Shown here: one piece after another, positions 1 through 64,000 of the stretch
How positions within the stretch are numbered: position 1 is the stretch's first letter
Layout: each line of letters opens with the position of its first letter
Source: Loxodes magnus
Lineage: Eukaryota > Ciliophora > Karyorelictea > Loxodida > Loxodidae
Assembly (NCBI GenBank): GCA_946699065.1
Contig: CAMPDV010000198.1
Span: 62,001-126,000 of the forward strand
DNA: 64,000 nt
Reading direction: 5' to 3'
Position numbers and translations under genes: made by a program
The notes under the pieces: generated by a model
The model's input: the letters and a program-made list of their open reading frames with translations, nothing else
Databases searched by the model: none
What the model was told of the DNA's origin: nothing

Positions 1-244
1 ATACGATGAACTCTGAATCACTGGATATAGCCACAGATCATACATAACTAGTGTGACCACTCATGGTCTTACAGGTACCTGTCTTGACGTCCCATAGTCT
101 CACCGTCTAATCATCACTTCCCGATATGATGAACTCTGAATCACTGGATATAGCCACAGATCATACATAACTAGTGTGACCACTCATGATCTTACAGGTA
201 CCTGTCTTGACGTCCCATAGTCTCACCGTCTAATCATAACTTCC

Positions 245-2456
245 CGATACGATGAACTCTGAATCACTGGATATAGCCACAGATCATACATAACTAGTGT
301 GACCACTCATGGTCTTACAGGTACCTGTCTTGACGTCCCATAGTCTCACCGTCTAATCATAACTTCCGATACGATGAACTCTGAATCACTGGATATAGCC
401 ACAGCATATACATAACTAGTGTGACCACTCATGGTCTTGCAGGTACCTGTCTTGACGTCCCATAGTCTCACCGTCTAATCATAACTTCCCGATATGATGA
501 ACTCTGAATCACTGGATATAGCCACAGATCATACAGAACTAGTGTGACCACTCATGGTCTTACAGGTACCTGTCTTAACGTCCCATAGTCTCACCGTCTA
601 ATCATAACTTCCCGATACGATGAACTCTGAATCACTGGATATAGCCACAGATAATACATAACTAGTGTGACCACTCATGGTCTTACAGGTACCTGTCTTG
701 ACGTCCCATAGTCTCACCGTCTAATCATAACTTCCCGATACGATGAACTCTGAATCACTGGATATAGCCACAGATGATACATAACTAGTGTGACCACTCA
801 TGGTCTTACAGGTACCTGTCTTGACGTCCCATAGTCTCACCGTCTAATCATAACTTCCCGATACGATGAACTCTGAATCACTGGATATAGACACAGATGA
901 TACAGAATCTGTGTGACCACTCATGATCTTACAGGTACCTGTCTTGACGTCCCATAGTCTCACCGTCTAATCATAACTTCCCGATACGATGAACTCTGAA
1001 TCACTGGATATAGCCACAGCATATACATAACTAGTGTGACCACTCATGGTCTTACAGGTACCTGTCTTGACGTCCCATAGTCTCACCGTCTAATCATAAC
1101 TTCCGATACGATGAACTCTGAATCACTGGATATAGCCACAGATCATACATAACTAGTGTGACCACTCATGGTTTTACAGGTACCTGTCTTGACGTCCCAT
1201 AGTCTCACCGTCTAATCATAACTTCCCGATACGATGAACTCTGAATCACTGGATATAGCCACAGCATATACATAACTAGTGTGACCACTCATGATCTTAC
1301 AGGTACCTGTCTTGACGTCCCATAGTCTCACCGTCTAATCATAACTTCCCGATACGATGAACTCTGAATCACTGGATATAGCCACAGATCATACATAACT
1401 AGTGTGACCACTCATGGTCTTACAGGTACCTGTCTTGACGTCCCATAGTCTCACCGTCTAATCATAACTTCCCGATACGATGAACTCTGAATCACTGGAT
1501 ATAGACACAGATGATACAGAATCTGTGTGACCACTCATGATCTTACAGGTACCTGTCTTGACGTCCCATAGTCTCACCGTCTAATCATAACTTCCCGATA
1601 CGATGAACTCTGAATCACTGGATATAGCCACAGATCATACATAACTAGTGTGACCACTCATGGTCTTACAGGTACCTGTCTTGACGTCCCATAGTCTCAC
1701 CGTCTAATCATAACTTCCGATACGATGAACTCTGAATCACTGGATATAGCCACAGCATATACATAACTAGTGTGACCACTCATGGTCTTGCAGGTACCTG
1801 TCTTGACGTCCCATAGTCTCACCGTCTAATCATAACTTCCCGATATGATGAACTCTGAATCACTGGATATAGCCACAGATCATACAGAACTAGTGTGACC
1901 ACTCATGGTCTTACAGGTACCTGTCTTAACGTCCCATAGTCTCACCGTCTAATCATAACTTCCCGATACGATGAACTCTGAATCACTGGATATAGCCACA
2001 GATAATACATAACTAGTGTGACCACTCATGGTCTTACAGGTACCTGTCTTGACGTCCCATAGTCTCACCGTCTAATCATAACTTCCCGATACGATGAACT
2101 CTGAATCACTGGATATAGCCACAGATGATACATAACTAGTGTGACCACTCATGGTCTTACAGGTACCTGTCTTGACGTCCCATAGTCTCACCGTCTAATC
2201 ATAACTTCCCGATACGATGAACTCTGAATCACTGGATATAGACACAGATGATACAGAATCTGTGTGACCACTCATGATCTTACAGGTACCTGTCTTGACG
2301 TCCCATAGTCTCACCGTCTAATCATAACTTCCCGATACGATGAACTCTGAATCACTGGATATAGCCACAGCATATACATAACTAGTGTGACCACTCATGG
2401 TCTTACAGGTACCTGTCTTGACGTCCCATAGTCTCACCGTCTAATCATAACTTCCC
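245..2456 (-). repeat. Duplicated 7-unit block, offset 1,351 bp
   Basis: Units at about 245-1105 recur in the same order at about 1596-2456. Shared rare markers include a G in gtcttgcagg (439 and 1790), the following gatatgatg unit with ttaacg, and the two 122-bp units. The offset equals 11 units minus two bases, as expected if two short units lie between the copies. Confidence 0.8.
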
Positions 2457-3170
2457 GATACGATGAACTCTGAATCACTGGATATATACACAGATCATAC
2501 AGAACTAGTGTGTCCACTGATGGTTTTACAGGTACCTGTCTTGACGTCCCATAGTCTCACCGTCTAATCATCACTTCCCGATATGATGAACTCTGAATCA
2601 CTGGATATAGCCACAGATGATACATAACTAGTGTGACCACTCATGGTCTTACAGGTACCTGTCTTGACGTCCCATAGTCTCACCGTCTAATCATAACTTC
2701 CGATACGATGAACTCTGAATCACTGGATATAGCCACAGATCATACATAACTAGTGTGACCACTCAAGGTCTTACAGGTACCTGTCTTAACGTCCCATAGT
2801 CTCACCGTCTAATCATAACTTCCCGATACGATGAACTCTGAATCACTGGATATAGCCACAGATGATACATAACTAGTGTGACCACTCATGGTCTTACAGG
2901 TACCTGTCTTGACGTCCCATAGTCTCACCGTCTAATCATAACTTCCCGATACGATGAACTCTGAATCACTGGATATAGCCACAGATCATACATAACTAGT
3001 GTGACCACTCATGGTCTTACAGGTACCTGTCTTGACGTCCCATAGTCTCACCGTCTAATCATAACTTCCCGATACGATGAACTCTGAATCACTGGATATA
3101 GCCACAGATGATACATAACTAGTGTGACCACTCATGGTCTTACAGGTACCTGTCTTGACGTCCCATAGTC

Positions 3171-3419
3171 TCACCGTCTAATCATAACTTCCGATACGAT
3201 GAACTCTGAATCACTGGATATAGCCACAGCATATACATAACTAGTGTGACCACTCATGGTCTTACAGGTACCTGTCTTGACGTTCCATAGTCTCACCGTC
3301 TCATCATAACTTCCCGATACGATGAACTCTGAATAACTGGATATAGCCACAGATAATACATAACTAGTGTGACCACTCATGATCTTACAGGTACCTGTCT
3401 TGACGTCCCATAGTCTCAC
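3171..3419 (-). pseudogene. Open two-blade WD40 segment ending in a frame slip
   Basis: Two blades are open: [25 protein letters not shown] with SSYSEF and SGSYDE, then LWN, HTSYVYAVA, and IVS. The lost-C short unit then shifts the frame to EVMIRR and stop. It contains the GAG (Glu) form of the D+1 codon, which differs from TAG by one base. The apparent start is GTG inside the blade. Confidence 0.45.
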
Positions 3420-5033
3420 CGTCTAATCATAACTTCCCGATACGATGAACTCTGAATCACTGGATATAGCCACAGATCATACATAACTAGTGTGACCACT
3501 CATGGTCTTACAGGTACCTGTCTTGACGTCCCATAGTCTCACCGTCTAATCATAACTTCCCGATACGATGAACTCTGAATCACTGGATATAGCCACAGCA
3601 TATACATAACTAGTGTGACCACTCATGGTCTTACAGGTACCTGTCTTGACGTCCCATAGTCTCACCGTCTAATCATAACTTCCGATACGATGAACTCTGA
3701 ATAACTGGATATAGCCACAGATAATACATAACTAGTGTGACCACTCATGATCTTACAGGTACCTGTCTTGACGTCCCATAGTCTCACCGTCTAATCATAA
3801 CTTCCGATACGATGAACTCTGAATCACTGGATATAGCCACAGCATATACATAACTAGTGTGACCACTCATGGTCTTACAGGTACCTGTCTTGACGTTCCA
3901 TAGTCTCACCGTCTTATCTCAACTTCCCGATACGATGAACTCTGAATCACTGGATATAGCCACAGATAATACAGAACTAGTGTGACCACTCATGGTCTTA
4001 CAGGTACCTGTCTTGACGTCCCATAGTCTCACCGTCTAATCATAACTTTCCGATACGATGAACTCTGAATAACTGGATATAGCCACAGATAATACATAAC
4101 TAGTGTGACCACTCATGATCTTACAGGTACCTGTCTTGACGTCCCATAGTCTCACCGTCTAATCATAACTTCCCGATACGATGAACTCTGAATCACTGGA
4201 TATAGCCACAGATCATACATAACTAGTGTGACCACTCATGGTCTTACAGGTACCTGTCTTGACGTCCCATAGTCTCACCGTCTAATCATAACTTCCCGAT
4301 ACGATGAACTCTGAATCACTGGATATAGCCACAGCATATACATAACTAGTGTGACCACTCATGGTCTTACAGGTACCTGTCTTGACGTCCCATAGTCTCA
4401 CCGTCTAATCATAACTTCCGATACGATGAACTCTGAATAACTGGATATAGCCACAGATAATACATAACTAGTGTGACCACTCATGATCTTACAGGTACCT
4501 GTCTTGACGTCCCATAGTCTCACCGTCTAATCATAACTTCCGATACGATGAACTCTGAATCACTGGATATAGCCACAGCATATACATAACTAGTGTGACC
4601 ACTCATGGTCTTACAGGTACCTGTCTTGACGTTCCATAGTCTCACCGTCTCATCATAACTTCCCGATACGATGAACTCTGAATAACTGGATATAGCCACA
4701 GATAATACATAACTAGTGTGACCACTCATGATCTTACAGGTACCTGTCTTGACGTCCCATAGTCTCACCGTCTAATCATAACTTCCCGATACGATGAACT
4801 CTGAATCACTGGATATAGCCACAGATCATACATAACTAGTGTGACCACTCATGGTCTTACAGGTACCTGTCTTGACGTCCCATAGTCTCACCGTCTAATC
4901 ATAACTTCCCGATACGATGAACTCTGAATCACTGGATATAGCCACAGCATATACATAACTAGTGTGACCACTCATGGTCTTACAGGTACCTGTCTTGACG
5001 TCCCATAGTCTCACCGTCTAATCATAACTTCCC
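3193..5033 (-). repeat. Nested duplications, offsets 736 and 1,349 bp
   Basis: A run of units marked by gaataactgg plus catgatctt, then a gatcatac unit, then a gcatatac unit begins near 3316, 4052 and 4665. The first two copies extend over about five units (offset 736 = 6 units minus two bases). The block from 3193 to 3684 also recurs at 4542-5033 (offset 1,349 = 11 units minus four bases). This looks like recent local unequal exchange. Confidence 0.75.
4520..4768 (-). pseudogene. Second copy of the two-blade segment at 3.2 kb
   Basis: It is identical in translation to the segment 1,349 bp earlier, including the Glu form and the frame slip, and arose by block duplication. Confidence 0.45.
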
Positions 5034-8000
5034 GATACGATGAACTCTGAATCACTGGATATAGCCACAGATCATACATAACTAGTGTGACCACTCATGG
5101 TCTTACAGGTACCTGTCTTGACGTCCCATAGTCTCACCGTCTAATCATAACTTCCCGATACGATGAACTCTGAATCACTGGATATAGCCACAGATCATAC
5201 ATAACTAGTGTGACCACTCATGGTCTTACAGGTACCTGTCTTGACGTCCCATAGTCTCACCGTATTATCTCAACTTCCCGATACGATGAACTCTGAATCA
5301 CTGGATATAGCCACAGATCATACATAACTAGTGTGACCACTCATGGTCTTACAGGTACCTGTCTTGACGTCCCATAGTCTCACCGTCTAATCTGCACTTT
5401 CCGATACTATGAACTCTGAATCACTGGATATAGCCACAGATCATACATAACTAGTTTGACCACTCATGGTCTTACAGGTACCTGTCTTGACGTCCCATAG
5501 TCTCACCGTCTAATCATAACTTCCCGATACGATGAACTCTGAATCACTGGATATAGACACAGATGATACAGAATCTGTGTGACCACTCATGGTCTTACAG
5601 GTACCTGTCTTGACGTCCCATAGTCTCACCGTCTAATCATAACTTCCCGATACGATGAACTCTGAATCACTGGATATAGCCACAGATCATACATAACTAG
5701 TGTGACCACTCATGGTCTTACAGGTACCTGTCTTGACGTCCCATAGTCTCACCGTCTAATCATAACTTCCCGATACGATGAACTCTGAATCACTGGATAT
5801 AGCCACAGATCATACATAACTAGTGTGACCACTCAAGGTCTTACAGGTACCTGTCTTGACGTCCCATAGTCTCACCGTCTAATCATAACTTCCGATACGA
5901 TGAACTCTGAATCACTGGATATAGCCACAGCATATACATAACTAGTGTGACCACTCATGGTCTTACAGGTACCTGTCTTAACGTCCCATAGTCTCACCGT
6001 ATTATCTCAACTTCCCGATACGATGAACTCTGAATCACTGGATATAGCCACAGATGATACAGAATCTGTGTGACCACTCATGGTCTTACAGGTACCTGTC
6101 TTGACGTCCCATAGTCTCACCGTCTAATCATAACTTCCCGATACGATGAACTCTGAATCACTGGATATAGCCACAGCATATACATAACTAGTGTGACCAC
6201 TCATGATCTTACAGGTACCTGTCTTGACGTCCCATAGTCTCACCGTCTAATCATCACTTCCCGATACGATGAACTCTGAATCACTGGATATAGACACAGA
6301 TGATACAGAATCTGTGTGACCACTCATGGTCTTACAGGTACCTGTCTTGACTTCCCATAGTCTCACCGTCTAATCATAACTTCCCGATACGATGAACTCT
6401 GAATCACTGGATATAGCCACAGATAATACATAACTAGTGTGACCACTCATGGTCTTACAGGTACCTGTCTTGACGTCCCATAGTCTCACCGTCTAATCTG
6501 CACTTCCCGATACGATGAACTCTGAATCACTGGATATAGACACAGATGATACAGAACTAGTTTGACCACTCATGGTCTTACAGGTACCTGTCTTGACGTC
6601 CCATAGTCTCACCGTCTAATCATAACTTCCCGATACGATGAACTCTGAATCACTGGATATAGACACAGATGATACAGAATCTGTGTGACCACTCATGGTC
6701 TTACAGGTACCTGTCTTGACGTCCCATAGTCTCACCGTCTAATCTCTACTTCCCGATACGATGAACTCTGAATCACTGGATATAGCCACAGATCATACAA
6801 CATTAGTGTGACCACTCATGGTCTTACAGGTACCTGTCTTGACGTCCCATAGTCTCACCGTCTAATCATAACTTCCCGATACGATGAACTCTGAATCACT
6901 GGATATAGCCACAGATAATACAGAACTAGTTTGACCACTCATGGTCTTACAGGTACCTGTCTTGACGTCCCATAGTCTCACCGTCTAATCTGCACTTTCC
7001 GATACTATGAACTCTGAATCACTGGATATAGCCACAGCATATACATAACTAGTTTGACCACTCATGGTCTTACAGGTACCTGTCTTGACGTCCCATAGTC
7101 TCACCGTCTAATCATAACTTCCCGATACGATGAACTCTGAATCACTGGATATATACACAGATCATACAGAACTAGTGTGTCCACTGATGGTTTTACAGGT
7201 ACCTGTCTTGACGTCCCATAGTCTCACCGTCTAATCTCTACTTCCCGATACGATGAACTCTGAATCACTGGATATAGCCACAGATCATACAACATTAGTG
7301 TGACCACTCATGGTCTTACAGGTACCTGTCTTGACGTCCCATAGTCTCACCGTCTAATCATAACTTCCCGATACGATGAACTCTGAATCACTGGATATAG
7401 CCACAGCATATACATAACTAGTGTGACCACTCATGGTCTTACAGGTACCTGTCTTGACGTCCCATAGTCTCACCGTCTAATCATAACTTCCCGATACGAT
7501 GAACTCTGAATCACTGGATATATACACAGATCATACATAACTAGTGTGTCCACTGATGGTCTTACAGGTACCTGTCTTGACGTCCCATAGTCTCACCGTC
7601 TAATCATAACTTCCCGATACGATGAACTCTGAATCACTGGATATAGCCACAGCATATACATAACTAGTGTGACCACTCATGGTCTTACAGGTACCTGTCT
7701 TGACGTCCCATAGTCTCACCGTCTAATCATAACTTCCGATACGATGAACTCTGAATAACTGGATATAGCCACAGATAATACATAACTAGTGTGACCACTC
7801 ATGGTCTTACAGGTACCTGTCTTGACGTCCCATAGTCTCACCGTCTAATCATAACTTCCCGATACGATGAACTCTGAATCACTGGATATAGCCACAGCAT
7901 ATACATAACTAGTGTGACCACTCATGGTCTTACAGGTACCTGTCTTGACGTCCCATAGTCTCACCGTCTAATCATAACTTCCCGATACGATGAACTCTGA

Positions 8001-11000
8001 ATCACTGGATATAGCCACAGATCATACAACATTAGTGTGACCACTCATGGTCTTACAGGTACCTGTCTTGACGTCCCATAGTCTCACCGTCTAATCATAA
8101 CTTCCCGATACGATGAACTCTGAATCACTGGATATAGCCACAGATCATACATAACTAGTGTGACCACTCATGGTCTTACAGGTACCTGTCTTGACGTCCC
8201 ATAGTCTCACCGTCTAATCATAACTTCCCGATACGATGAACTCTGAATCACTGGATATAGCCACAGATCATACATAACTAGTGTGACCACTGATGGTCTT
8301 ACAGGTACCTGTCTTGACGTCCCATAGTCTCACCGTCTAATCATAACTTCCCGATACGATGAACTCTGAATCACTGGATATAGCCACAGATCATACATAA
8401 CTAGTGTGACCACTCATGGTCTTACAGGTACCTGTCTTGACGTCCCATAGTCTCACCGTCTAATCATAACTTCCCGATACGATGAACTCTGAATCACTGG
8501 ATATATACACAGATCATACATAACTAGTGTGTCCACTGATGGTCTTACAGGTACCTGTCTTGACGTCCCATAGTCTCACCGTCTAATCATAACTTCCCGA
8601 TACGATGAACTCTGAATCACTGGATATAGCCACAGATCATACATAACTAGTGTGACCACTCATGGTCTTACAGGTACCTGTCTTGACGTCCCATAGTCTC
8701 ACCGTCTAATCATAACTTCCCGATACGATGAACTCTGAATCACTGGATATAGCCACAGATCATACATAACTAGTGTGACCACTCATGGTCTTACAGGTAC
8801 CTGTCTTGACGTCCCATAGTCTCACCGTCTAATCATAACTTCCCGATACGATGAACTCTGAATCACTGGATATAGCCACAGATCATACATAACTAGTGTG
8901 ACCACTCATGGTCTTACAGGTACCTGTCTTGACGTCCCATAGTCTCACCGTCTAATCATAACTTCCCGATACGATGAACTCTGAATCACTGGATATAGCC
9001 ACAGATCATACATAACTAGTGTGACCACTCATGGTCTTACAGGTACCTGTCTTGACGTCCCATAGTCTCACCGTCTAATCATAACTTCCCGATACGATGA
9101 ACTCTGAATCACTGGATATATACACAGATCATACATAACTAGTGTGTCCACTGATGGTCTTACAGGTACCTGTCTTGACGTCCCATAGTCTCACCGTCTA
9201 ATCATAACTTCCCGATACGATGAACTCTGAATCACTGGATATAGCCACAGCATATACATAACTAGTGTGACCACTCATGGTCTTACAGGTACCTGTCTTG
9301 ACGTCCCATAGTCTCACCGTCTAATCATAACTTCCCGATACGATGAACTCTGAATCACTGGATATATACACAGATGATACAGAATCTGTGTGACCACTCA
9401 TGGTCTTACAGGTACCTGTCTTGACGTCCCATAGTCTCACCGTCTAATCATAACTTCCCGATACGATGAACTCTGAATCACTGGATATAGCCACAGCATA
9501 TACATAACTAGTGTGACCACTCATGGTCTTACAGGTACCTGTCTTGACGTCCCATAGTCTCACCGTCTAATCATAACTTCCCGATACGATGAACTCTGAA
9601 TCACTGGATATAGCCACAGATCATACAACATTAGTGTGACCACTCATGGTCTTACAGGTACCTGTCTTGACGTCCCATAGTCTCACCGTCTAATCATAAC
9701 TTCCCGATACGATGAACTCTGAATCACTGGATATAGCCACAGATCATACATAACTAGTGTGACCACTCATGGTCTTACAGGTACCTGTCTTGACGTCCCA
9801 TAGTCTCACCGTCTAATCATAACTTCCCGATACGATGAACTCTGAATCACTGGATATATACACAGATCATACATAACTAGTGTGTCCACTGATGGTCTTA
9901 CAGGTACCTGTCTTGACGTCCCATAGTCTCACCGTCTAATCATAACTTCCCGATACGATGAACTCTGAATCACTGGATATAGCCACAGATCATACATAAC
10001 TAGTGTGACCACTCATGGTCTTACAGGTACCTGTCTTGACGTCCCATAGTCTCACCGTCTAATCATAACTTCCCGATACGATGAACTCTGAATCACTGGA
10101 TATAGCCACAGATCATACATAACTAGTGTGACCACTCATGGTCTTACAGGTACCTGTCTTGACGTCCCATAGTCTCACCGTCTAATCATAACTTCCCGAT
10201 ACGATGAACTCTGAATCACTGGATATAGCCACAGATCATACATAACTAGTGTGACCACTCATGGTCTTACAGGTACCTGTCTTGACGTCCCATAGTCTCA
10301 CCGTCTAATCATAACTTCCCGATACGATGAACTCTGAATCACTGGATATATACACAGATCATACATAACTAGTGTGTCCACTGATGGTCTTACAGGTACC
10401 TGTCTTGACGTCCCATAGTCTCACCGTCTAATCATAACTTCCCGATACGATGAACTCTGAATCACTGGATATAGCCACAGATGATACAGAATCTGTGTGA
10501 CCACTCATGGTATTACATGTACCTGTCTTGACGTCCCATAGTCTCACCGTCTAATCATAACTTCCCGATACGATGAACTCTGAATCACTGGATATAGACA
10601 CAGATGATACAGAATCTGTGTGACCACTCATGATCTTACAGGTACCTGTCTTGACGTCCCATAGTCTCACCGTCTAATCATAACTTCCCGATACGATGAA
10701 CTCTGAATCACTGGATATAGCCACAGCATATACATAACTAGTGTGACCACTCATGGTCTTACAGGTACCTGTCTTGACGTCCCATAGTCTCACCGTCTAA
10801 TCATAACTTCCCGATACGATGAACTCTGAATCACTGGATATAGCCACAGATCATACAACATTAGTGTGACCACTCATGGTCTTACAGGTACCTGTCTTGA
10901 CGTCCCATAGTCTCACCGTCTAATCATAACTTCCCGATACGATGAACTCTGAATCACTGGATATAGCCACAGATCATACATAACTAGTGTGACCACTCAT

Positions 11001-12026
11001 GGTCTTACAGGTACCTGTCTTGACGTCCCATAGTCTCACCGTCTAATCATAACTTCCCGATACGATGAACTCTGAATCACTGGATATAGCCACAGATCAT
11101 ACATAACTAGTGTGACCACTCATGGTCTTACAGGTACCTGTCTTGACGTCCCATAGTCTCACCGTCTAATCATAACTTCCCGATACGATGAACTCTGAAT
11201 CACTGGATATAGCCACAGATCATACATAACTAGTGTGACCACTCATGGTCTTACAGGTACCTGTCTTGACGTCCCATAGTCTCACCGTCTAATCATAACT
11301 TCCCGATACGATGAACTCTGAATCACTGGATATATACACAGATCATACATAACTAGTGTGTCCACTGATGGTCTTACAGGTACCTGTCTTGACGTCCCAT
11401 AGTCTCACCGTCTAATCATAACTTCCCGATACGATGAACTCTGAATCACTGGATATAGCCACAGCATATACATAACTAGTGTGACCACTCATGGTCTTAC
11501 AGGTACCTGTCTTGACGTCCCATAGTCTCACCGTCTAATCATAACTTCCCGATACGATGAACTCTGAATCACTGGATATAGCCACAGATAATACATAACT
11601 AGTGTGACCACTCATGGTCTTACAGGTACCTGTCTTGACGTCCCATAGTCTCACCGTCTAATCATAACTTCCCGATACGATGAACTCTGAATCACTGGAT
11701 ATAGCCACAGATAATACAGAACTAGTGTGTCCACTGATGGTCTTACAGGTACCTGTCTTGACGTCCCATAGTCTCACCGTCTAATCATAACTTCCCGATA
11801 CGATGAACTCTGAATCACTGGATATAGCCACAGATCATACATAACTAGTGTGACCACTCATGGTCTTACAGGTACCTGTCTTGACGTCCCATAGTCTCAC
11901 CGTCTAATCATAACTTCCCGATACGATGAACTCTGAATCACTGGATATAGCCACAGATCATACATAATTTGTGTGACCACTCATGGTCTTACAGGTACCT
12001 GTCTTGACGTCCCATAGTCTCACCGT

Positions 12027-20100: not shown

Positions 20101-21489
20101 TCTTACAGGTACCTGTCTTGACGTCCCATAGTCTCACCGTCTAATCATAACTTCCCGATACGATGAACTCTGAATCACTGGATATAGACACAGATGATAC
20201 AGAATCTGTGTGACCACTCATGGTCTTACAGGTACCTGTCTTGACGTCCCATAGTCTCACCGTCTAATCTGCACTTCCCGATACGATGAACTCTGAATCA
20301 CTGGATATAGCCACAGATAATACAGAACTAGTGTGTCCACTGATGGTCTTACAGGTACCTGTCTTGACGTCCCATAGTCTCACCGTCTAATCATCACTTC
20401 CCGATACGATGAACTCTGAATCACTGGATATAGCCACAGCATATACATAACTAGTGTGACCACTCATGGTCTTACAGGTACCTGTCTTGACGTCCCATAG
20501 TCTCACCGTCTAATCATCACTTCCCGATACGATGAACTCTGAATCACTGGATATAGCCACAGATGATACAGAATCTGTGTGACCACTCATGGTATTACAT
20601 GTACCTGTCTTGACGTCCCATAGTCTCACCGTCTAATCATAACTTCCCGATACGATGAACTCTGAATCACTGGATATAGACACAGATGATACAGAATCTG
20701 TGTGACCACTCATGGTCTTACAGGTACCTGTCTTGACGTCCCATAGTCTCACCGTATATCATAACTTCCCGATACGATGAACTCTGAATCACTGGATATA
20801 GCCACAGATAATACAGAACTAGTGTGTCCACTGATGGTCTTACAGGTACCTGTCTTGACGTCCCATAGTCTCACCGTATTATCTCAACTTCCCGATACGA
20901 TGAACTCTGAATCACTGGATATAGCCACAGATAATACAGAACTAGTGTGTCCACTGATGGTCTTACAGGTACCTGTCTTGACGTCCCATAGTCTCACCGT
21001 CTAATCATAACTTCCCGATACGATGAACTCTGAATCACTGGATATAGCCACAGATCATACATAACTAGTGTGACCACTGATGTTCTTACAGGTACCTGTC
21101 TTGACGTCCCATAGTCTCACCGTCTAATCATAACTTCCCGATACGATGAACTCTGAATCACTGGATATAGCCACAGATAATACATAACTAGTGTGACCAC
21201 TCATGGTCTTACAGGTACCTGTCTTGACGTCCCATAGTCTCACCGTCTAATCATAACTTCCCGATACGATGAACTCTGAATCACTGGATATAGCCACAGA
21301 TCATACATAACTAGTGTGACCACTCATGGTCTTACAGGTACCTGTCTTGACGTCCCATAGTCTCACCGTCTAATCATAACTTCCCGATACGATGAACTCT
21401 GAATCACTGGATATAGACACAGATGATACAGAATCTGTGTGACCACTCATGATCTTACAGGTACCTGTCTTGACGTCCCATAGTCTCAC

Positions 21490-22356
21490 CGTATTATCTC
21501 AACTTCCCGATACGATGAACTCTGAATCACTGGATATAGCCACAGATAATACAGAACTAGTGTGTCCACTGATGGTCTTACAGGTACCTGTCTTGACGTC
21601 CCATAGTCTCACCGTATTATCTCAACTTCCCGATACGATGAACTCTGAATCACTGGATATAGCCACAGATAATACAGAACTAGTGTGTCCACTGATGGTC
21701 TTACAGGTACCTGTCTTAACGTCCCATAGTCTCACCGTATTATCTCAACTTCCCGATACGATGAACTCTGAATCACTGGATATAGCCACAGATAATACAG
21801 AACTAGTGTGTCCACTGATGGTCTTACAGGTACCTGTCTTGACGTCCCATAGTCTCACCGTATTATCTCAACTTCCCGATACGATGAACTCTGAATCACT
21901 GGATATAGCCACAGATAATACAGAACTAGTGTGTCCACTGATGGTCTTACAGGTACCTGTCTTAACGTCCCATAGTCTCACCGTATTATCTCAACTTCCC
22001 GATACGATGAACTCTGAATCACTGGATATAGCCACAGATAATACAGAACTAGTGTGTCCACTGATGGTCTTACAGGTACCTGTCTTGACGTCCCATAGTC
22101 TCACCGTATTATCTCAACTTCCCGATACGATGAACTCTGAATCACTGGATATAGCCACAGATAATACAGAACTAGTGTGTCCACTGATGGTCTTACAGGT
22201 ACCTGTCTTAACGTCCCATAGTCTCACCGTATTATCTCAACTTCCCGATACGATGAACTCTGAATCACTGGATATAGCCACAGATAATACAGAACTAGTG
22301 TGTCCACTGATGGTCTTACAGGTACCTGTCTTGACGTCCCATAGTCTCACCGTCTA
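21490..22356 (-). pseudogene. Seven-unit WD40 block with TGA as the only stop
   Basis: Seven consecutive near-identical units have Asn (AAT) after the conserved Asp in place of TAG, and Leu (TTA) in strand a in place of TGA. Each unit has one in-frame stop, TGA, between SGS and DNT. Apart from that codon the frame is open for 867 bp and reads [20 protein letters not shown], then [20 protein letters not shown]. Neighbouring units elsewhere have AGA (Arg) at this codon, one base from TGA. Units alternate between ttgacg and ttaacg (a silent Val change), so the block is a dimer of 246 bp repeated about three times. Under the standard code it is dead. If UGA were Trp, the site would read [12 protein letters not shown], a very typical WD40 sequence. 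No Met start context is seen. Confidence 0.55.
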
Positions 22357-23339
22357 ATCATAACTTCCCGATACGATGAACTCTGAATCACTGGATATAG
22401 ACACAGATGATACAGAATCTGTGTGACCACTCATGATCTTACAGGTACCTGTCTTGACGTCCCATAGTCTCACCGTCTAATCATAACTTCCCGATACGAT
22501 GAACTCTGAATCACTGGATATAGCCACAGATCATACATAACTAGTGTGACCACTCATGGTCTTACAGGTACCTGTCTTGACGTCCCATAGTCTCACCGTC
22601 TAATCTCCACTTCCCGATACGATGAACTCTGAATCACTGGATATAGCCACAGATCATACATAACTAGTGTGACCACTCATGGTCTTACAGGTACCTGTCT
22701 TGACGTCCCATAGTCTCACCGTCTAATCATAACTTCCCGATACGATGAACTCTGAATCACTGGATATAGCCACAGATGATACATAACTAGTGTGACCACT
22801 CATGGTCTTACAGGTACCTGTCTTGACGTCCCATAGTCTCACCGTCTAATCATAACTTCCCGATACGATGAACTCTGAATCACTGGATATAGCCACAGAT
22901 CATACATAACTAGTGTGACCACTCATGGTCTTACAGGTACCTGTCTTGACGTCCCATAGTCTCACCGTCTAATCATAACTTCCCGATACGATGAACTCTG
23001 AATCACTGGATATAGCCACAGCATATACATAACTAGTGTGACCACTCAAGGTCTTACAGGTACCTGTCTTGACGTCCCATAGTCTCACCGTATTATCTCA
23101 ACTTCCCGATGCGATGAACTCTGAATCACTGGATATAGCCACAGATAATACAGAACTAGTGTGTCCACTGATGGTCTTACAGGTACCTGTCTTGACGTCC
23201 CATAGTCTCACCGTATTATCTCAACTTCCCGATACGATGAACTCTGAATCACTGGATATAGCCACAGATAATACAGAACTAGTGTGTCCACTGATGGTCT
23301 TACAGGTACCTGTCTTGACGTCCCATAGTCTCACCGTCT

Positions 23340-52455: not shown

Positions 52456-52698
52456 CTAATCATAACTTCCCGATACGATGAACTCTGAATCACTGGATAT
52501 AGCCACAGATAATACAGAACTAGTGTGTCCACTGATGGTCTTACAGGTACCTGTCTTGACGTCCCATAGTCTCACCGTATAATCTGCACTTCCCGATACG
52601 ATGAACTCTGAATCACTGGATATAGCCACAGATAATACAGAACTAGTTTGACCACTCATGGTCTTACAGGTACCTGTCTTGACGTCCCATAGTCTCAC
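52456..52698 (-). pseudogene. Open two-blade WD40 segment with SGSADY
   Basis: The blades read [10 protein letters not shown] with SGSADY, then [14 protein letters not shown] and SGSYD before TAG. It is copied exactly 4,641 bp downstream. Confidence 0.45.
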
Positions 52699-55600
52699 CG
52701 TCTAATCTGCACTTCCCGATACGATGAACTCTGAATCACTGGATATAGCCACAGATAATACAGAACTAGTTTGACCACTCATGGTCTTACAGGTACCTGT
52801 CTTGACGTCCCATAGTCTCACCGTCTAATCATAACTTCCCGATACGATGAACTCTGAATCACTGGATATAGCCACAGATAATACAGAACTAGTTTGACCC
52901 CTCATGGTTTTACAGGTACCTGTCTTGACGTCCCATAGTCTCACCGTCTAATCTGCACTTCCCGATACGATGAACTCTGAATCACTGGATATAGCCACAG
53001 ATCATACAACATTAGTGTGACCACTCATGGTCTTACAGGTACCTGTCTTGACGTCCCATAGTCTCACCGTCTAATCTGCACTTCCCGATACGATGAACTC
53101 TGAATCACTGGATATAGCCACAGATAATACAGAACTAGTTTGACCACTCATGGTCTTACAGGTACCTGTCTTGACGTCCCATAGTCTCACAGTCTTATCT
53201 CAACTTCCCGATACGATGAACTCTGAATCACTGGATATAGCCACAGATAATACAGAACTAGTTTGACCACTCATGGTCTTACAGGTACCTGTCTTGACGT
53301 CCCATAGTCTCACCGTCTAATCATAACTTCCCGATACGATGAACTCTGAATCACTGGATATAGCCACAGATCATACAGAACTAGTTTGACCACTCATGGT
53401 CTTACAGGTACCTGTCTTGACGTCCCATAGTCTCACCGTCTAATCATAACTTCCCGATACGATGAACTCTGAATCACTGGATATAGCCACAGATCATACA
53501 TAACTAGTGTGACCACTCATGGTCTTACAGGTACCTGTCTTGACGTCCCATAGTCTCACCGTCTAATCATAACTTCCCGATACGATGAACTCTGAATCAC
53601 TGGATATAGCCACAGATAATACATAACTAGTGTGACCACTCATGGTCTTACAGGTACCTGTCTTGACGTCCCATAGTCTCACCGTCTAATCTGCACTTCC
53701 CGATACGATGAACTCTGAATCACTGGATATAGCCACAGATCATACATAACTAGTGTGACCACTCATGGTCTTACAGGTACCTGTCTTGACGTCCCATAGT
53801 CTCACCGTCTAATCATAACTTCCCGATACGATGAACTCTGAATCACTGGATATAGACACAGATGATACAGAATCTGTGTGACCACTCATGGTCTTACAGG
53901 TACCTGTCTTGACGTCCCATAGTCTCACCGTCTAATCATAACTTCCCGATACGATGAACTCTGAATCACTGGATATAGACACAGATGATACAGAATCTGT
54001 GTGACCACTCATGGTCTTACAGGTACCTGTCTTGACGTCCCATAGTCTCACCGTCTAATCATAACTTCCCGATACGATGAACTCTGAATCACTGGATATA
54101 GCCACATCAGATATATAATCTGTGTGACCACTCATGGTTTTACAGGTAACTGTCTTGACGTCCCATAGTCTCACCGTATTATCTCAACTTCCCGATACGA
54201 TGAACTCTGAATCACTGGATATAGCCACAGATCATACATAACTAGTGTGACCACTCATGGTCTTACAGGTACCTGTCTTGACGTCCCATAGTCTCACCGT
54301 CTAATCATAACTTCCCGATACGATGAACTCTGAATCACTGGATATAGCCACAGATCATACATAACTAGTGTGACCACTCATGGTCTTACAGGTACCTGTC
54401 TTGACGTCCCATAGTCTCACCGTCTAATCATAACTTCCCGATACGATGAACTCTGAATCACTGGATATAGCCACAGATAATACATAACTAGTGTGACCAC
54501 TCATGGTCTTACAGGTACCTGTCTTGACGTCCCATAGTCTCACCGTCTAATCTGCACTTCCCGATACGATGAACTCTGAATCACTGGATATAGCCACAGA
54601 TCATACATAACTAGTGTGACCACTCATGGTCTTACAGGTACCTGTCTTGACGTCCCATAGTCTCACCGTCTAATCATAACTTCCCGATACGATGAACTCT
54701 GAATCACTGGATATAGACACAGATGATACAGAATCTGTGTGACCACTCATGGTCTTACAGGTACCTGTCTTGACGTCCCATAGTCTCACCGTCTAATCAT
54801 AACTTCCCGATACGATGAACTCTGAATCACTGGATATAGACACAGATGATACAGAATCTGTGTGACCACTCATGGTCTTACAGGTACCTGTCTTGACGTC
54901 CCATAGTCTCACCGTCTAATCTGCACTTCCCGATACGATGAACTCTGAATCACTGGATATAGCCACAGATAATACAGAACTAGTTTGACCACTCATGGTC
55001 TTACAGGTACCTGTCTTGACGTCCCATAGTCTCACCGTCTAATCTGCACTTCCCGATACGATGAACTCTGAATCACTGGATATAGCCACAGATCATACAT
55101 AACTAGTGTGACCACTCATGGTCTTACAGGTACCTGTCTTGACGTCCCATAGTCTCACCGTCTAATCATAACTTCCCGATACGATGAACTCTGAATCACT
55201 GGATATAGCCACAGATAATACAACATATGTGTGACCACTCATGGTCTTACAGGTACCTGTCTTGACGTCCCATAGTCTCACCGTCTAATCATAACTTCCC
55301 GATACGATGAACTCTGAATCACTGGATATAGCCACAGATAATACATAACTAGTGTGACCACTCATGGTCTTACAGGTACCTGTCTTGACGTCCCATAGTC
55401 TCACCGTCTAATCATAACTTCCCGATACGATGAACTCTGAATCACTGGATATAGCCACAGATAATACAGAACTAGTGTGACCACTCATGGTTTTACAGGT
55501 ACCTGTCTTGACGTCCCATAGTCTCACCGTCTAATCTGCACTTCCCGATACGATGAACTCTGAATCACTGGATATAGCCACAGATAATACAGAACTAGTT

Positions 55601-56285
55601 TGACCACTCATGGTCTTACAGGTACCTGTCTTGACGTCCCATAGTCTCACCGTCTAATCATAACTTCCCGATACGATGAACTCTGAATCACTGGATATAG
55701 CCACAGATAATACATAACTAGTGTGACCACTCATGGTCTTACAGGTACCTGTCTTGACGTCCCATAGTCTCACCGTATTATCTCAACTTCCCGATACGAT
55801 GAACTCTGAATCACTGGATATAGCCACAGATCATACAGAATCTGTGTGACCACTCATGGTCTTACAGGTACCTGTCTTGACGTCCCATAGTCTCACCGTC
55901 TAATCATAGCTTCCCGATACGATGAACTCTGAATCACTGGATATAGCCACAGATCATACATAACTAGTGTGACCACTCATGGTCTTACAGGTACCTGTCT
56001 TGACGTCCCATAGTCTCACCGTCTAATCATAACTTCCCGATACGATGAACTCTGAATCACTGGATATAGCCACAGATCATACATAACTAGTGTGACCACT
56101 CATGGTCTTACAGGTACCTGTCTTGACGTCCCATAGTCTCACCGTCTAATCATAACTTCCCGATACGATGAACTCTGAATCACTGGATATAGCCACATCA
56201 GATACATAACTAGTGTGACCACTCATGGTCTTACAGGTACCTGTCTTGACGTCCCATAGTCTCACCGTCTAATCATAACTTCCCG

Positions 56286-56375
56286 ATACGATGAACTCTG
56301 AATCACTGGATATAGCAAAAGATAATACATATGTCTTGACGTCCCATAGTCTCACCGTCTAATCTGCACTTCCCG
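56286..56375 (-). repeat. 90-bp WD40 unit, first copy
   Basis: The spacing between landmarks is 90 bp, 33 bp less than normal. The missing part covers the end of strand c to the d-a loop ([11 protein letters not shown] region), removing exactly 11 codons and keeping the frame. The join reads DVKT then YVLSFAIS on the minus strand, with SFA in place of the usual SVA. A blade lacking strand d and the GH turn could not fold as a normal WD40 blade. Confidence 0.85.
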
Positions 56376-57096
56376 ATACGATGAACTCTGAATCACTGGA
56401 TATAGCCACAGATAATACAGAACTAGTTTGACCACTCATGGTCTTACAGGTACCTGTCTTGACGTCCCATAGTCTCACCGTCTAATCATAACTTCCCGAT
56501 ACGATGAACTCTGAATCACTGGATATAGCCACAGATAATACAGAACTAGTGTGTCCACTCATGGTCTTACAGGTACCTGTCTTGACGTCCCATAGTCTCA
56601 CCGTCTAATCATAACTTCCCGATACGATGAACTCTGAATCACTGGATATAGCCACAGATAATACAGAACTAGTGTGTCCACTCATGGTCTTACAGGTACC
56701 TGTCTTGACGTCCCATAGTCTCACCGTCTAATCTGCACTTCCCGATACGATGAACTCTGAATCACTGGATATAGCCACAGATCATACATAACTAGTGTGA
56801 CCACTCATGGTCTTACAGGTACCTGTCTTGACGTCCCATAGTCTCACCGTCTAATCATAACTTCCCGATACGATGAACTCTGAATCACTGGATATAGCCA
56901 CAGATAATACAACATTAGTGTGACCACTCATGGTCTTACAGGTACCTGTCTTGACGTCCCATAGTCTCACCGTCTAATCTGCACTTCCCGATACGATGAA
57001 CTCTGAATCACTGGATATAGCCACAGATAATACAGAACTAGTTTGACCACTCATGGTCTTACAGGTACCTGTCTTGACGTCCCATAGTCTCACCGT

Positions 57097-57339
57097 CTAA
57101 TCATAACTTCCCGATACGATGAACTCTGAATCACTGGATATAGCCACAGATAATACAGAACTAGTGTGTCCACTGATGGTCTTACAGGTACCTGTCTTGA
57201 CGTCCCATAGTCTCACCGTATAATCTGCACTTCCCGATACGATGAACTCTGAATCACTGGATATAGCCACAGATAATACAGAACTAGTTTGACCACTCAT
57301 GGTCTTACAGGTACCTGTCTTGACGTCCCATAGTCTCAC
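57097..57339 (-). pseudogene. Second copy of the SGSADY segment
   Basis: It is identical in translation to 52,456-52,698, carried by the 38-unit tandem duplication. Confidence 0.45.
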
Positions 57340-60300
57340 CGTCTAATCTGCACTTCCCGATACGATGAACTCTGAATCACTGGATATAGCCACAGATAAT
57401 ACAGAACTAGTTTGACCACTCATGGTCTTACAGGTACCTGTCTTGACGTCCCATAGTCTCACCGTCTAATCATAACTTCCCGATACGATGAACTCTGAAT
57501 CACTGGATATAGCCACAGATAATACAGAACTAGTTTGACCCCTCATGGTTTTACAGGTACCTGTCTTGACGTCCCATAGTCTCACCGTCTAATCTGCACT
57601 TCCCGATACGATGAACTCTGAATCACTGGATATAGCCACAGATCATACAACATTAGTGTGACCACTCATGGTCTTACAGGTACCTGTCTTGACGTCCCAT
57701 AGTCTCACCGTCTAATCTGCACTTCCCGATACGATGAACTCTGAATCACTGGATATAGCCACAGATAATACAGAACTAGTTTGACCACTCATGGTCTTAC
57801 AGGTACCTGTCTTGACGTCCCATAGTCTCACAGTCTTATCTCAACTTCCCGATACGATGAACTCTGAATCACTGGATATAGCCACAGATAATACAGAACT
57901 AGTTTGACCACTCATGGTCTTACAGGTACCTGTCTTGACGTCCCATAGTCTCACCGTCTAATCATAACTTCCCGATACGATGAACTCTGAATCACTGGAT
58001 ATAGCCACAGATCATACAGAACTAGTTTGACCACTCATGGTCTTACAGGTACCTGTCTTGACGTCCCATAGTCTCACCGTCTAATCATAACTTCCCGATA
58101 CGATGAACTCTGAATCACTGGATATAGCCACAGATCATACATAACTAGTGTGACCACTCATGGTCTTACAGGTACCTGTCTTGACGTCCCATAGTCTCAC
58201 CGTCTAATCATAACTTCCCGATACGATGAACTCTGAATCACTGGATATAGCCACAGATAATACATAACTAGTGTGACCACTCATGGTCTTACAGGTACCT
58301 GTCTTGACGTCCCATAGTCTCACCGTCTAATCTGCACTTCCCGATACGATGAACTCTGAATCACTGGATATAGCCACAGATCATACATAACTAGTGTGAC
58401 CACTCATGGTCTTACAGGTACCTGTCTTGACGTCCCATAGTCTCACCGTCTAATCATAACTTCCCGATACGATGAACTCTGAATCACTGGATATAGACAC
58501 AGATGATACAGAATCTGTGTGACCACTCATGGTCTTACAGGTACCTGTCTTGACGTCCCATAGTCTCACCGTCTAATCATAACTTCCCGATACGATGAAC
58601 TCTGAATCACTGGATATAGACACAGATGATACAGAATCTGTGTGACCACTCATGGTCTTACAGGTACCTGTCTTGACGTCCCATAGTCTCACCGTCTAAT
58701 CATAACTTCCCGATACGATGAACTCTGAATCACTGGATATAGCCACATCAGATATATAATCTGTGTGACCACTCATGGTTTTACAGGTAACTGTCTTGAC
58801 GTCCCATAGTCTCACCGTATTATCTCAACTTCCCGATACGATGAACTCTGAATCACTGGATATAGCCACAGATCATACATAACTAGTGTGACCACTCATG
58901 GTCTTACAGGTACCTGTCTTGACGTCCCATAGTCTCACCGTCTAATCATAACTTCCCGATACGATGAACTCTGAATCACTGGATATAGCCACAGATCATA
59001 CATAACTAGTGTGACCACTCATGGTCTTACAGGTACCTGTCTTGACGTCCCATAGTCTCACCGTCTAATCATAACTTCCCGATACGATGAACTCTGAATC
59101 ACTGGATATAGCCACAGATAATACAGAACTAGTTTGACCACTCATGGTCTTACAGGTACCTGTCTTGACGTCCCATAGTCTCACCGTCTAATCATAACTT
59201 CCCGATATGATGAACTCTGAATCACTGGATATAGCCACAGATCATACATAACTAGTGTGACCACTCATGGTCTTACAGGTACCTGTCTTGACGTCCCATA
59301 GTCTCACCGTCTAATCATAACTTCCCGATACGATGAACTCTGAATCACTGGATATAGCCACAGATCATACAGAACTAGTGTGACCACTCATGGTCTTACA
59401 GGTACCTGTCTTGACGTCCCATAGTCCCACCGTCTAATCATAACTTCCCGATACGATGAACTCTGAATCACTGGATATAGCCACAGATAATACAACATTA
59501 GTGTGACCACTCATGGTCTTACAGGTACCTGTCTTGACGTCCCATAGTCTCACCGTCTAATCTGCACTTCCCGATACGATGAACTCTGAATCACTGGATA
59601 TAGCCACAGATAATACAGAACTAGTTTGACCACTCATGGTCTTACAGGTACCTGTCTTGACGTCCCATAGTCTCACCGTCTAATCTGCACTTCCCGATAC
59701 GATGAACTCTGAATCACTGGATATAGCCACAGATCATACATAACTAGTGTGACCACTCATGGTCTTACAGGTACCTGTCTTGACGTCCCATAGTCTCACC
59801 GTCTAATCATAACTTCCCGATACGATGAACTCTGAATCACTGGATATAGCCACAGATAATACAACATATGTGTGACCACTCATGGTCTTACAGGTACCTG
59901 TCTTGACGTCCCATAGTCTCACCGTCTAATCATAACTTCCCGATACGATGAACTCTGAATCACTGGATATAGCCACAGATAATACATAACTAGTGTGACC
60001 ACTCATGGTCTTACAGGTACCTGTCTTGACGTCCCATAGTCTCACCGTCTAATCATAACTTCCCGATACGATGAACTCTGAATCACTGGATATAGCCACA
60101 GATAATACAGAACTAGTGTGACCACTCATGGTTTTACAGGTACCTGTCTTGACGTCCCATAGTCTCACCGTCTAATCTGCACTTCCCGATACGATGAACT
60201 CTGAATCACTGGATATAGCCACAGATAATACAGAACTAGTTTGACCACTCATGGTCTTACAGGTACCTGTCTTGACGTCCCATAGTCTCACCGTCTAATC

Positions 60301-60926
60301 ATAACTTCCCGATACGATGAACTCTGAATCACTGGATATAGCCACAGATAATACATAACTAGTGTGACCACTCATGGTCTTACAGGTACCTGTCTTGACG
60401 TCCCATAGTCTCACCGTATTATCTCAACTTCCCGATACGATGAACTCTGAATCACTGGATATAGCCACAGATCATACAGAATCTGTGTGACCACTCATGG
60501 TCTTACAGGTACCTGTCTTGACGTCCCATAGTCTCACCGTCTAATCATAGCTTCCCGATACGATGAACTCTGAATCACTGGATATAGCCACAGATCATAC
60601 ATAACTAGTGTGACCACTCATGGTCTTACAGGTACCTGTCTTGACGTCCCATAGTCTCACCGTCTAATCATAACTTCCCGATACGATGAACTCTGAATCA
60701 CTGGATATAGCCACAGATCATACATAACTAGTGTGACCACTCATGGTCTTACAGGTACCTGTCTTGACGTCCCATAGTCTCACCGTCTAATCATAACTTC
60801 CCGATACGATGAACTCTGAATCACTGGATATAGCCACATCAGATACATAACTAGTGTGACCACTCATGGTCTTACAGGTACCTGTCTTGACGTCCCATAG
60901 TCTCACCGTCTAATCATAACTTCCCG

Positions 60927-61016
60927 ATACGATGAACTCTGAATCACTGGATATAGCAAAAGATAATACATATGTCTTGACGTCCCATAGTCTCACCGTC
61001 TAATCATAACTTCCCG
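60927..61016 (-). repeat. 90-bp WD40 unit, second copy
   Basis: It has the same 33-bp loss and the same local substitutions as the copy 4,641 bp earlier, so it was carried by the 38-unit duplication and is not an independent deletion. Confidence 0.85.
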
Positions 61017-61499
61017 ATACGATGAACTCTGAATCACTGGATATATACACAGAATATACATAACTAGTGTGACCACTCATAGTCTTACAGGTACCTGTCT
61101 TGACGTCCCATAGTCTCACCGTCTAATCATAACTTCCCGATACGATGAACTCTGAATCACTGGATATAGCCACAGATAATACAGAACTAGTGTGTCCACT
61201 CATGGTCTTACAGGTACCTGTCTTGACGTCCCATAGTCTCACCGTCTAATCATAACTTCCCGATACGATGAACTCTGAATCACTGGATATAGCCACAGAT
61301 AATACAGAACTAGTGTGTCCACTCATGGTCTTACAGGTACCTGTCTTGACGTCCCATAGTCTCACCGTCTAATCTGCACTTCCCGATACGATGAACTCTG
61401 AATCACTGGATATAGCCACAGATCATACATAACTAGTGTGACCACTCATGGTCTTACAGGTACCTGTCTTGACGTCCCATAGTCTCACCGTCTAATCAT

Positions 61500-64000
61500 A
61501 ACTTCCCGATACGATGAACTCTGAATCACTGGATATAGCCACAGATAATACAGAACTAGTTTGACCACTCATGGTCTTACAGGTACCTGTCTTGACGTCC
61601 CATAGTCTCACCGTCTAATCATAACTTCCCGATACGATGAACTCTGAATCACTGGATATAGCCACAGATAATACAACATATGTGTGACCACTCATGGTCT
61701 TACAGGTACCTGTCTTGACGTCCCATAGTCTCACCGTCTAATCATAACTTCCCGATACGATGAACTCTGAATCACTGGATATAGCCACAGATAATACATA
61801 ACTAGTGTGACCACTCATGGTCTTACAGGTACCTGTCTTGACGTCCCATAGTCTCACCGTCTAATCATAACTTCCCGATACGATGAACTCTGAATCACTG
61901 GATATAGCCACAGATAATACAGAACTAGTGTGACCACTCATGGTTTTACAGGTACCTGTCTTGACGTCCCATAGTCTCACCGTCTAATCTGCACTTCCCG
62001 ATACGATGAACTCTGAATCACTGGATATAGCCACAGATCATACAGAATCTGTGTGACCACTCATGGTCTTACAGGTACCTGTCTTGACGTCCCATAGTCT
62101 CACCGTCTAATCATAGCTTCCCGATACGATGAACTCTGAATCACTGGATATAGCCACAGATCATACATAACTAGTGTGACCACTCATGGTCTTACAGGTA
62201 CCTGTCTTGACGTCCCATAGTCTCACCGTCTAATCATAACTTCCCGATACGATGAACTCTGAATCACTGGATATAGCCACAGATCATACATAACTAGTGT
62301 GACCACTCATGGTCTTACAGGTACCTGTCTTGACGTCCCATAGTCTCACCGTATATCATAACTTCCCGATACGATGAACTCTGAATCACTGGATATAGCC
62401 ACAGATGATACATAACTAGTTTGACCACTCATGGTCTTACAGGTACCTGTCTTGACGTCCCATAGTCTCACCGTCTAATCATAACTTCCCGATACGATGA
62501 ACTCTGAATCACTGGATATAGCCACAGATAATACAGAACTAGTGTGACCACTCATGGTCTTACAGGTACCTGTCTTGACGTCCCATAGTCTCACCGTCTA
62601 ATCTGCACTTCCCGATACGATGAACTCTGAATCACTGGATATAGCCACAGATCATACAGAATCTGTGTGACCACTCATGGTCTTACAGGTACCTGTCTTG
62701 ACGTCCCATAGTCTCACCGTCTAATCATAGCTTCCCGATACGATGAACTCTGAATCACTGGATATAGCCACAGATCATACATAACTAGTGTGACCACTCA
62801 TGGTCTTACAGGTACCTGTCTTGACGTCCCATAGTCTCACCGTCTAATCATAGCTTCCCGATACGATGAACTCTGAATCACTGGATATAGCCACAGATCA
62901 TACATAACTAGTGTGACCACTCATGGTCTTACAGGTACCTGTCTTGACGTCCCATAGTCTCACCGTCTAATCATAACTTCCCGATACGATGAACTCTGAA
63001 TCACTGGATATAGCCACAGATCATACATAACTAGTGTGACCACTCATGGTCTTACAGGTACCTGTCTTGACGTCCCATAGTCTCACCGTCTAATCATAAC
63101 TTCCCGATACGATGAACTCTGAATCACTGGATATAGCCACATCAGATACATAACTAGTGTGACCACTCATGGTCTTACAGGTACCTGTCTTGACGTCCCA
63201 TAGTCTCACCGTCTAATCATAACTTCCCGATACGATGAACTCTGAATCACTGGATATAGCAAAAGATAATACATATGTCTTGACGTCCCATAGTCTCACC
63301 GTCTAATCATAACTTCCCGATACGATGAACTCTGAATCACTGGATATATACACAGAATATACATAACTAGTATGACCACTCATAGTCTTACAGGTACCTG
63401 TCTTGACGTCCCATAGTCTCACCGTCTAATCATAACTTCCCGATACGATGAACTCTGAATCACTGGATATAGCCACAGATAATACAGAACTAGTGTGTCC
63501 ACTCATGGTCTTACAGGTACCTGTCTTGACGTCCCATAGTCTCACCGTCTAATCATAACTTCCCGATACGATGAACTCTGAATCACTGGATATAGCCACA
63601 TCAGATACATAACTAGTGTGACCACTCATGGTCTTACAGGTACCTGTCTTGACGTCCCATAGTCTCACCGTCTAATCATAACTTCCCGATACGATGAACT
63701 CTGAATCACTGGATATATACACAGAATATACAACATTAGTGTGACCACTCATGGTCTTACAGGTACCTGTCTTGACGTCCCATAGTCTCACCGTCTAATC
63801 ATAACTTCCCGATACGATGAACTCTGAATCACTGGATATAGCCACAGATAATACAGAACTAGTTTGACCACTCATGGTCTTACAGGTACCTGTCTTGACG
63901 TCCCATAGTCTCACCGTCTAATCATAACTTCCCGATACGATGAACTCTGAATCACTGGATATATACACAGAATATACAACATTAGTGTGACCACTCATGG
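61500..64000 (-). repeat. Mosaic of shorter copies at the right edge
   Basis: Units here repeat pieces of the preceding 38-unit block in altered order. The caacatatg unit and the next two recur 1,812 bp after 59,862. The gatcatacagaatctg plus tagcttcccg pair occurs near 62,040 and again near 62,650. The 90-bp unit recurs 2,303 bp after its second copy. Units with tatacacagaatatac (strand a reading VYSVYIS) cluster here at about 61,016, 63,319, 63,710 and 63,960. They are rare elsewhere, so this subtype may continue beyond the window. Confidence 0.7.
63230..63319 (-). repeat. 90-bp WD40 unit, third copy
   Basis: This is identical in form to the two earlier copies. It lies 2,303 bp after the second and is followed by the tatacacagaatatac unit as at 61,016, which suggests it derives from the second copy. 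Confidence 0.85.

Follow-up and report, generated by a model that had tools for sequence, protein, structure and literature searches.

The 64,000-nucleotide stretch of Loxodes magnus DNA analysed here (the window; positions 62,001 to 126,000 of contig CAMPDV010000198.1, hereafter C198, in assembly GCA_946699065.1) consists, on its minus strand, of tandem copies of a 123-base unit that is assigned to the WD40 repeat (PF00400) by profile match and predicted propeller fold. The codons of this array that resemble in-frame stops are tryptophan (Trp; TGA) and glutamine (Gln; TAG) codons under the karyorelict nuclear code (NCBI table 27). Very probably, the window is a satellite derived from sequence that codes for a WD40 blade, and the distribution of its stop-type codons reflects selection within a family of genes that contain this blade. 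The apparent stops have an ordinary explanation in a known code, which removes a seeming paradox and illustrates how reading with the wrong code misleads, whereas the satellite of a hypervariable blade and the associated receptor-like gene family are not ordinary.

Stop-type codons and the genetic code

The window array (positions 1 to 64000, minus strand) was detected by Tandem Repeats Finder (TRF) with a period of 123 (458 copies in the first row). Cyclic alignment divided it into 522 units of 41 codons, 467 of which are free of gaps, with 137 distinct sequences among these full units. The array reaches past the window, starts at the contig end and contains 1,073 units in all (C198:1-131512). 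When read with table 27, positions 60500-63999 give a Pfam WD40 match of 1.4e-164 (528 bits; cut-off 27).

All 703 stop-type codons of the window lie at codons 21, 37 and 39 of the unit. Codon 21 is TGA in 236 of 522 units, codon 37 is TGA in 37 of 521 and codon 39 is TAG in 430 of 521; across the 522 units, no stop-type codon is present at the other 38 codons and TAA is absent throughout. This full tabulation by column agrees with the original prediction, which had placed the in-frame stops at three of 41 codons (TAG only after the conserved Asp, TGA only at V-x-SV and SGS-x-D) and had found no TAA. It had also described TTA, TCA and TGA as common at V-x-SV, and the codons used there (codon 21) are indeed TGA (236), TTA (116), TCA (92), TAT (67) and TCT (11). 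The second and third bases of codon 21 are strongly linked, and TAA is missing though it is one step from several of the codons in use. History is enough to explain this absence, and a bias against Gln may also act at the site. The third base of codon 39 is G in 442, T in 79 and A in none of the 521 units; Gln is always TAG at this codon in the window because its third base has been nearly frozen by homogenisation. Among the 467 full units, 15 contain no stop-type codon, 241 contain one and 211 contain two. Over the whole array of 1,073 units, TAG also occurs at codon 11 in two units.

In table 27, TAA and TAG encode Gln, and TGA encodes Trp or acts as a stop depending on context. Tubulin matches in the genome contain up to 13 in-frame TAA codons, many TAG and some TGA, and in eight tubulins the alignment columns that hold Gln as CAA or CAG in some copies hold TAA or TAG in others. 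Cathepsin matches likewise contain in-frame stop-type codons, with up to seven TGA. In nine cathepsin stretches, taken from 154 matches and mostly chosen for their many stop-type codons, TGA is aligned with Trp in 97 of 157 comparisons. Comparison of a cathepsin with solved structures places stop-type codons at the Trp residues of the motifs SC-W-AF, NS-W-G and W-GE. The premise that TGA and TAG end translation in the array therefore fails, since tubulins and cathepsins show that these codons are read as sense. The karyorelict code was already known and accounts for the finding. PMC11441545 (cited, like the other papers below, from parts of its text) describes the L. magnus macronuclear assembly of 706 Mbp, of which tandem repeats make up 231 Mbp, under table 27, and reports that in Loxodes TGA encodes Trp inside genes and terminates translation only near the 3' end of the mRNA. 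A reading of GTGAGA...TTAG in the unit as splice sites was dropped because the motif is coding sequence (V-R-L-W-D and D-Q) and the published introns of Loxodes average 19 bp (PMC11441545). Nine tubulin matches in a row at a spacing of 3,342 bases (C441:147748-175110) form a tandem tubulin cluster.

The fold of the window units was predicted from single sequences with AlphaFold2. Seven consecutive frame-intact units (units 14-20; positions 61486-62346, minus strand), read with table 27, are predicted to form a seven-bladed propeller with a mean predicted local distance difference test score (pLDDT) of 92.9 and a predicted template modelling score (pTM) of 0.90. The first solved structure matched by this model is that of the WD40 domain of PkwA, a bacterial kinase (PDB 5yzv; template modelling score 0.92). 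The closest solved neighbour by sequence is the repetitive WD40 protein 2ymu, in which several blades have Trp at the position of codon 21. The stretch 62188-63083 (minus strand), in which five units with an intact frame precede one that lacks a single base (unit 13, 122 bases), served as a control; its pLDDT is 87-94 per ten-residue block over residues 31-210 and 33-45 from residue 241, past the deletion.

The distribution of the stop-type codons was compared with the substitution spectrum of the array itself, with variants counted when seen in at least two units. At 34 conserved codons, no stop-making change was seen against 1.66 expected (P=0.18), and in 20,000 simulations with this spectrum three or fewer stop columns occurred in 67% and no TAA in 52%. 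The confinement of the stop-type codons is thus not improbable given the array spectrum, and the 703 codons represent a handful of events because the repeats share ancestry. The expectation that random decay would scatter stops over other codons consequently provides no significant contrast. A neutral simulation had been proposed along with that expectation; it leaves the three-column pattern and the lack of TAA unremarkable, and what is clear is the uneven location of change, as seven variable codons average 3.3 single-base changes each and the other 34 average 0.94. Random decay is rejected as the cause because the codons are sense codons; the statistics lend support neither way.

A gene family with hypervariable blades

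A degenerate DNA motif for the peptide EHPHI-x-TGH detected 301 loci in the genome, and the reversed control detected none. Some small clusters of the unit turned out to be genes. Thirteen gene loci were fetched, and ten of these have seven blades (counted by eye; one stretch ends inside blade 7). The remaining loci comprise one gene with six blades, one that is frameshifted and one that enters a masked stretch; two further small clusters are short and not of the seven-blade gene form. A pentapeptide stretch (PF00805, 2.4e-16 in the one gene scanned) lies upstream of the blades. The N-terminus of the C5 gene is a protein kinase (PF07714, 4.8e-44), and the C2 and C3 genes have an N-terminal Cys-rich, RING-like segment (E 0.0015 and 0.0025, respectively). 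Among the 100 motif loci listed of the 301, a kinase lies 910-952 bp upstream in at least 13 (a count that took in all 71 kinase matches on contigs up to C399) and a RING-like segment 1066-1350 bp upstream in at least 25. Among the matches listed, the two modules occur together at none of these 100 loci, and neither was found on the wrong side or strand. Membership in the NOD-like receptor (NLR) family was rejected because NACHT is absent from C198 and from the 60 kb around the 13 gene loci; genome-wide, NACHT has 31 matches, all of which exceed the cut-off (best E 6.7e-7). Five motif loci on one contig (C331:32025, 85993, 126588, 199951 and 323322) have identical 27-base matches, and this series is perhaps a segmental duplication.

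The five most diverse codons in the window are 21, 19, 18, 37 and 39, and the variable codons of the unit as a whole are 18, 19, 21, 22, 37 and 39. In Podospora, codons 7, 9, 25 and 27 of the het-d/het-e WD40 repeats are under strong positive selection and are paired around the conserved codons 8 and 26 (PMC1805685). When Podospora codons 8 and 26 are set on Val20 and Asp38 of the Loxodes unit, which are also 18 apart, codons 19, 21, 37 and 39 are predicted to be the selected ones. At these four codons the gene units have a proportion of nonsynonymous differences (pN) of 0.555 and a proportion of synonymous differences (pS) of 0.194, the first of 41 cyclic shifts (next pN 0.362), and pN/pS is 5.25 among the distinct units of the window. 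Codons 21, 37 and 39 are therefore special in being three of the four codons selected in the HET-D/HET-E repeats. In the gene units that passed a strict filter (n=23, from 12 of the 13 loci), pN/pS is 3.73 at the six variable codons and 0.32 at the other 35.

Stop-type codons occur only at codons 21, 37 and 39 of the window because most variation of the blade sits at about six codons, and Trp and Gln are two of the many residues sampled at the variable sites. The six variable codons hold 45 of the 49 stop-type codons in two other arrays (C6 and C4; 40 units) and 23 of the 25 in gene units under a looser filter (n=37). In gene units TAA is present at codons 19, 22, 29 and 39. It had been proposed earlier that either these sites are special or homogenisation has spread a few early stops; the sites are hypervariable and the homogenisation is real, and only the stops that both halves of this proposal took for granted have fallen away.

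Homogenisation was measured in eight genes (of 11 loci; 28 pairs). Among them, the middle blades have the lowest pS (0.094), followed by blades 6-7 (0.27), blade 1 (0.43) and the pentapeptide stretch (0.64), and pN/pS of the gene flanks is 0.20-0.34. The family members look like selected genes whose middle blades are the part most shared between loci, and the blades evolve in concert between loci.

Copy number, genome position and origin of the arrays

An exact 23-mer of the unit has 392,811 copies in the genome, and its reversed control has none. At 123 bases per unit, the satellite amounts to about 48 Mb, or about 7% of the assembly (705,730,643 bases). The window is thus satellite DNA, with long tandem arrays in very high copy. 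A second WD40 satellite with a 126-bp unit (KVWDFQTGSCLRTFTGHADSVLSIAISPDQKWIVSASYDKTI) is present on C6957, C1503, C119 and C9; it is variable at homologous codons and contains TAA at codons 22, 38 and 40. Two of its arrays (C6957:1-10000 and C1503:92001-102000) contain no frameshift among 157 full units.

The orientation of motif loci was counted for 67 loci on contigs C2-C201, drawn from the 100 loci listed. For 27 of them a left contig end is no more than 50 kb away, and all but one of these 27 are on the minus strand and point outward (26 loci; P=2e-7). On C198 and C119, the arrays extend to the contig ends in the same outward sense. Further in there are exceptions in orientation: two loci on C27, and one on the minus strand of C2 at 66 kb from its right end. 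C27 and C81 end in AT-rich repeats of another kind, and the telomeres of Loxodes have eluded detection (PMC11441545). The data suggest that motif loci and arrays occupy subtelomeric sites; the contig ends may be mere repeat breaks, and those with outward motif loci may lead to chromosome ends.

The proposed course of events starts in the gene family. Diversifying selection among its members (301 motif loci) would generate the variation at about six codons (18, 19, 21, 22, 37 and 39), which by homology may face binding partners. In the genes fetched, a pentapeptide stretch precedes usually seven blades, and of the three genes examined upstream one has a kinase and two have a RING-like segment at the N-terminus. 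Their middle blades are homogenised between loci, and middle-blade units would then have been amplified into arrays that together hold copies in the hundreds of thousands. Homogenisation has largely fixed one codon per residue and site, so that Gln at codon 39 appears as TAG in the window. The window array itself probably makes no protein, because 50 of its 522 units are frameshifted by 1-base deletions, and it may have arisen recently from selected sequence or be in exchange with it. At its conserved codons, 11 of 32 distinct changes are synonymous versus 8.2 expected, as in neutral drift. Upstream of a 17-kb array on C4, the stretch 2224501-2226600 contains a kinase-like tail (recognised by eye; no Pfam match) and diverged WD40 repeats in another frame, and is perhaps the broken gene from which that array grew.

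Three other explanations were weighed against derivation from a selected gene family. The least probable is a decayed coding array, in which early, real stops at three codons were spread by homogenisation. Homogenisation is strong, as the small number of distinct units indicates, and the 1-base deletions leave much of the array unreadable in one frame. This explanation is contradicted by stop-type codons in the units of genes with low flanking pN/pS, by those in the tubulin and cathepsin core genes, and by the agreement of Trp at codon 21 with several blades of 2ymu. Translation of long in-frame arrays into giant, many-bladed proteins is also very improbable. The uninterrupted 10-kb stretches of the 126-bp satellite and the confident predicted fold of seven window units are compatible with it; the mean distance between frame breaks in the window is 8.9 units (with the partial units at both ends included as breaks), the fetched genes mostly stop at seven blades, and the 4.5 kb beyond the 5' edge of the array contain no Pfam family at E 0.01 in three frames.

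The third explanation, that the megabase arrays are a silent store from which genes take blades by gene conversion, as with surface-antigen cassettes, is on the unlikely side and deserves more weight than the other two. Genes on different contigs agree at synonymous sites in their middle blades and not in the flanks, and the outward orientation near left contig ends is like that of the C198 and C119 arrays. Eighteen of 29 gene units differ by at most seven bases from their closest match in a sample of 1,035 array units, and none of these 18 has a closer match in another sampled gene. Such nearness is expected, however, because many more array units than gene units were sampled, and the other 11 gene units are 11-24 bases from the nearest sampled array unit. 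Only one of the 29 gene residue combinations recurs in the array sample, which covers about 0.3% of the copies, no transfer event was seen among the units compared, and conversion between genes would homogenise the blades without arrays. If the arrays do archive blade variants, the satellite would be a functional library and not junk. A broader proposal, somewhat less likely still, is a hypervariable receptor system in which hundreds of propellers headed by kinase or RING-like modules would draw binding blades from a genome-wide pool, with the satellite of about 48 Mb as the archive of variants.

Derivation of the array from a selected gene family, with its stop-type codons read as sense, has several observations to contend with. 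In the nine cathepsins, TAA is aligned with Gln in 55 and with Lys in 55 of 392 comparisons, and TAG with Lys in 30 and with Gln in 28 of 237; as Gln ties with Lys in this weak signal, the reading of TAA and TAG as Gln draws on the tubulins and on PMC11441545. Confinement of the stop-type codons is strong in the window and not absolute outside it. Four of the 49 in the C6 and C4 arrays lie elsewhere (codons 3, 29 and 35; two are TAA), and the two exceptions among the 25 in gene units lie at codon 29 (TAA) and codon 41 (TGA), the latter taken to belong to the frameshifted unit. The six variable codons were picked after inspection of the data, with only the four-codon test fixed beforehand, and the selection comparisons use pairs of units that are not independent. 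Pairwise among distinct units, pN/pS at the conserved codons of the window is 0.55, and the array is therefore not cleanly neutral. The RING-like matches (18.9 and 18.2 bits) are below the Pfam cut-off of 25.2, the N-terminal segment of the longer C2 and C3 frames has no Pfam match, and 62 of the 100 loci listed have neither module among the matches listed (150 per module).

Several further features of the array are found within the window. Three regions, each with one 90-bp unit in which 33 nucleotides are missing in frame, were identified on the minus strand from TRF rows and alignment gaps at positions 63186-63365, 60883-61062 and 56242-56419. The frameshifted units of the C198 array are mostly clustered in its middle (units 144-760, window included) and fall into two deletion types with 34 units each, which resemble amplified founders. 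The sole open reading frame (ORF) of at least 150 amino acids under the standard code (302 amino acids; positions 21449-22357, plus strand) is antisense to the array and is probably an accident of the repeat.

Relation to known repeat systems

The literature search yielded no paper with both Loxodes and WD40, and the main text of PMC11441545 (supplement not included) mentions no WD40, WD-repeat, kinase or satellite. Searches for ciliate WD40 kinases, WD40 satellites derived from coding sequence and hypervariable WD40 proteins of ciliates gave only PMC6564038 on point among the papers listed. That paper, in the parts available, names WD40 only as one of seven common domains. It describes leucine-rich repeat (LRR) genes of Tetrahymena with 90-bp exons, which resemble the Loxodes system in having one coding unit in very high copy, with pericentromeric and subtelomeric enrichment. 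They differ in that the LRR units lie in separate exons, and the same parts of the paper mention no hypervariable WD40 satellite.

The bacterial repetitive WD40 proteins (PkwA/5yzv and 2ymu) share with the Loxodes family their repetitive blades, diverse hotspot sites and WD40 genes that encode kinases (PMC5587647). Their hosts, by contrast, are bacteria, and a satellite is unmentioned in the available parts of that paper. The satellite of Loxodes, at about 7% of the genome, encodes a variable module predicted to be foldable, which raises the question of whether satellite DNA can store protein variants for active genes.

A close likeness is also seen to the HNWD genes het-d and het-e of Podospora anserina, in which near-identical WD40 units are homogenised between loci and the same four codons are diversified, paired around two conserved codons (PMC1805685). 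HNWD repeats are typed by seven variable positions (PMC12222747). The two systems differ in three respects. The Loxodes loci examined have kinase or RING-like modules, whereas HNWD has NACHT; the Loxodes genes usually have seven blades, whereas functional het-d/het-e alleles usually have 11 repeats; and the Loxodes unit is also a satellite, of which the HNWD papers, in the parts available, make no mention. The Loxodes genes may represent a recognition-type family in a ciliate, one that has the four variable codons of fungal allorecognition but carries kinase and RING-like heads.

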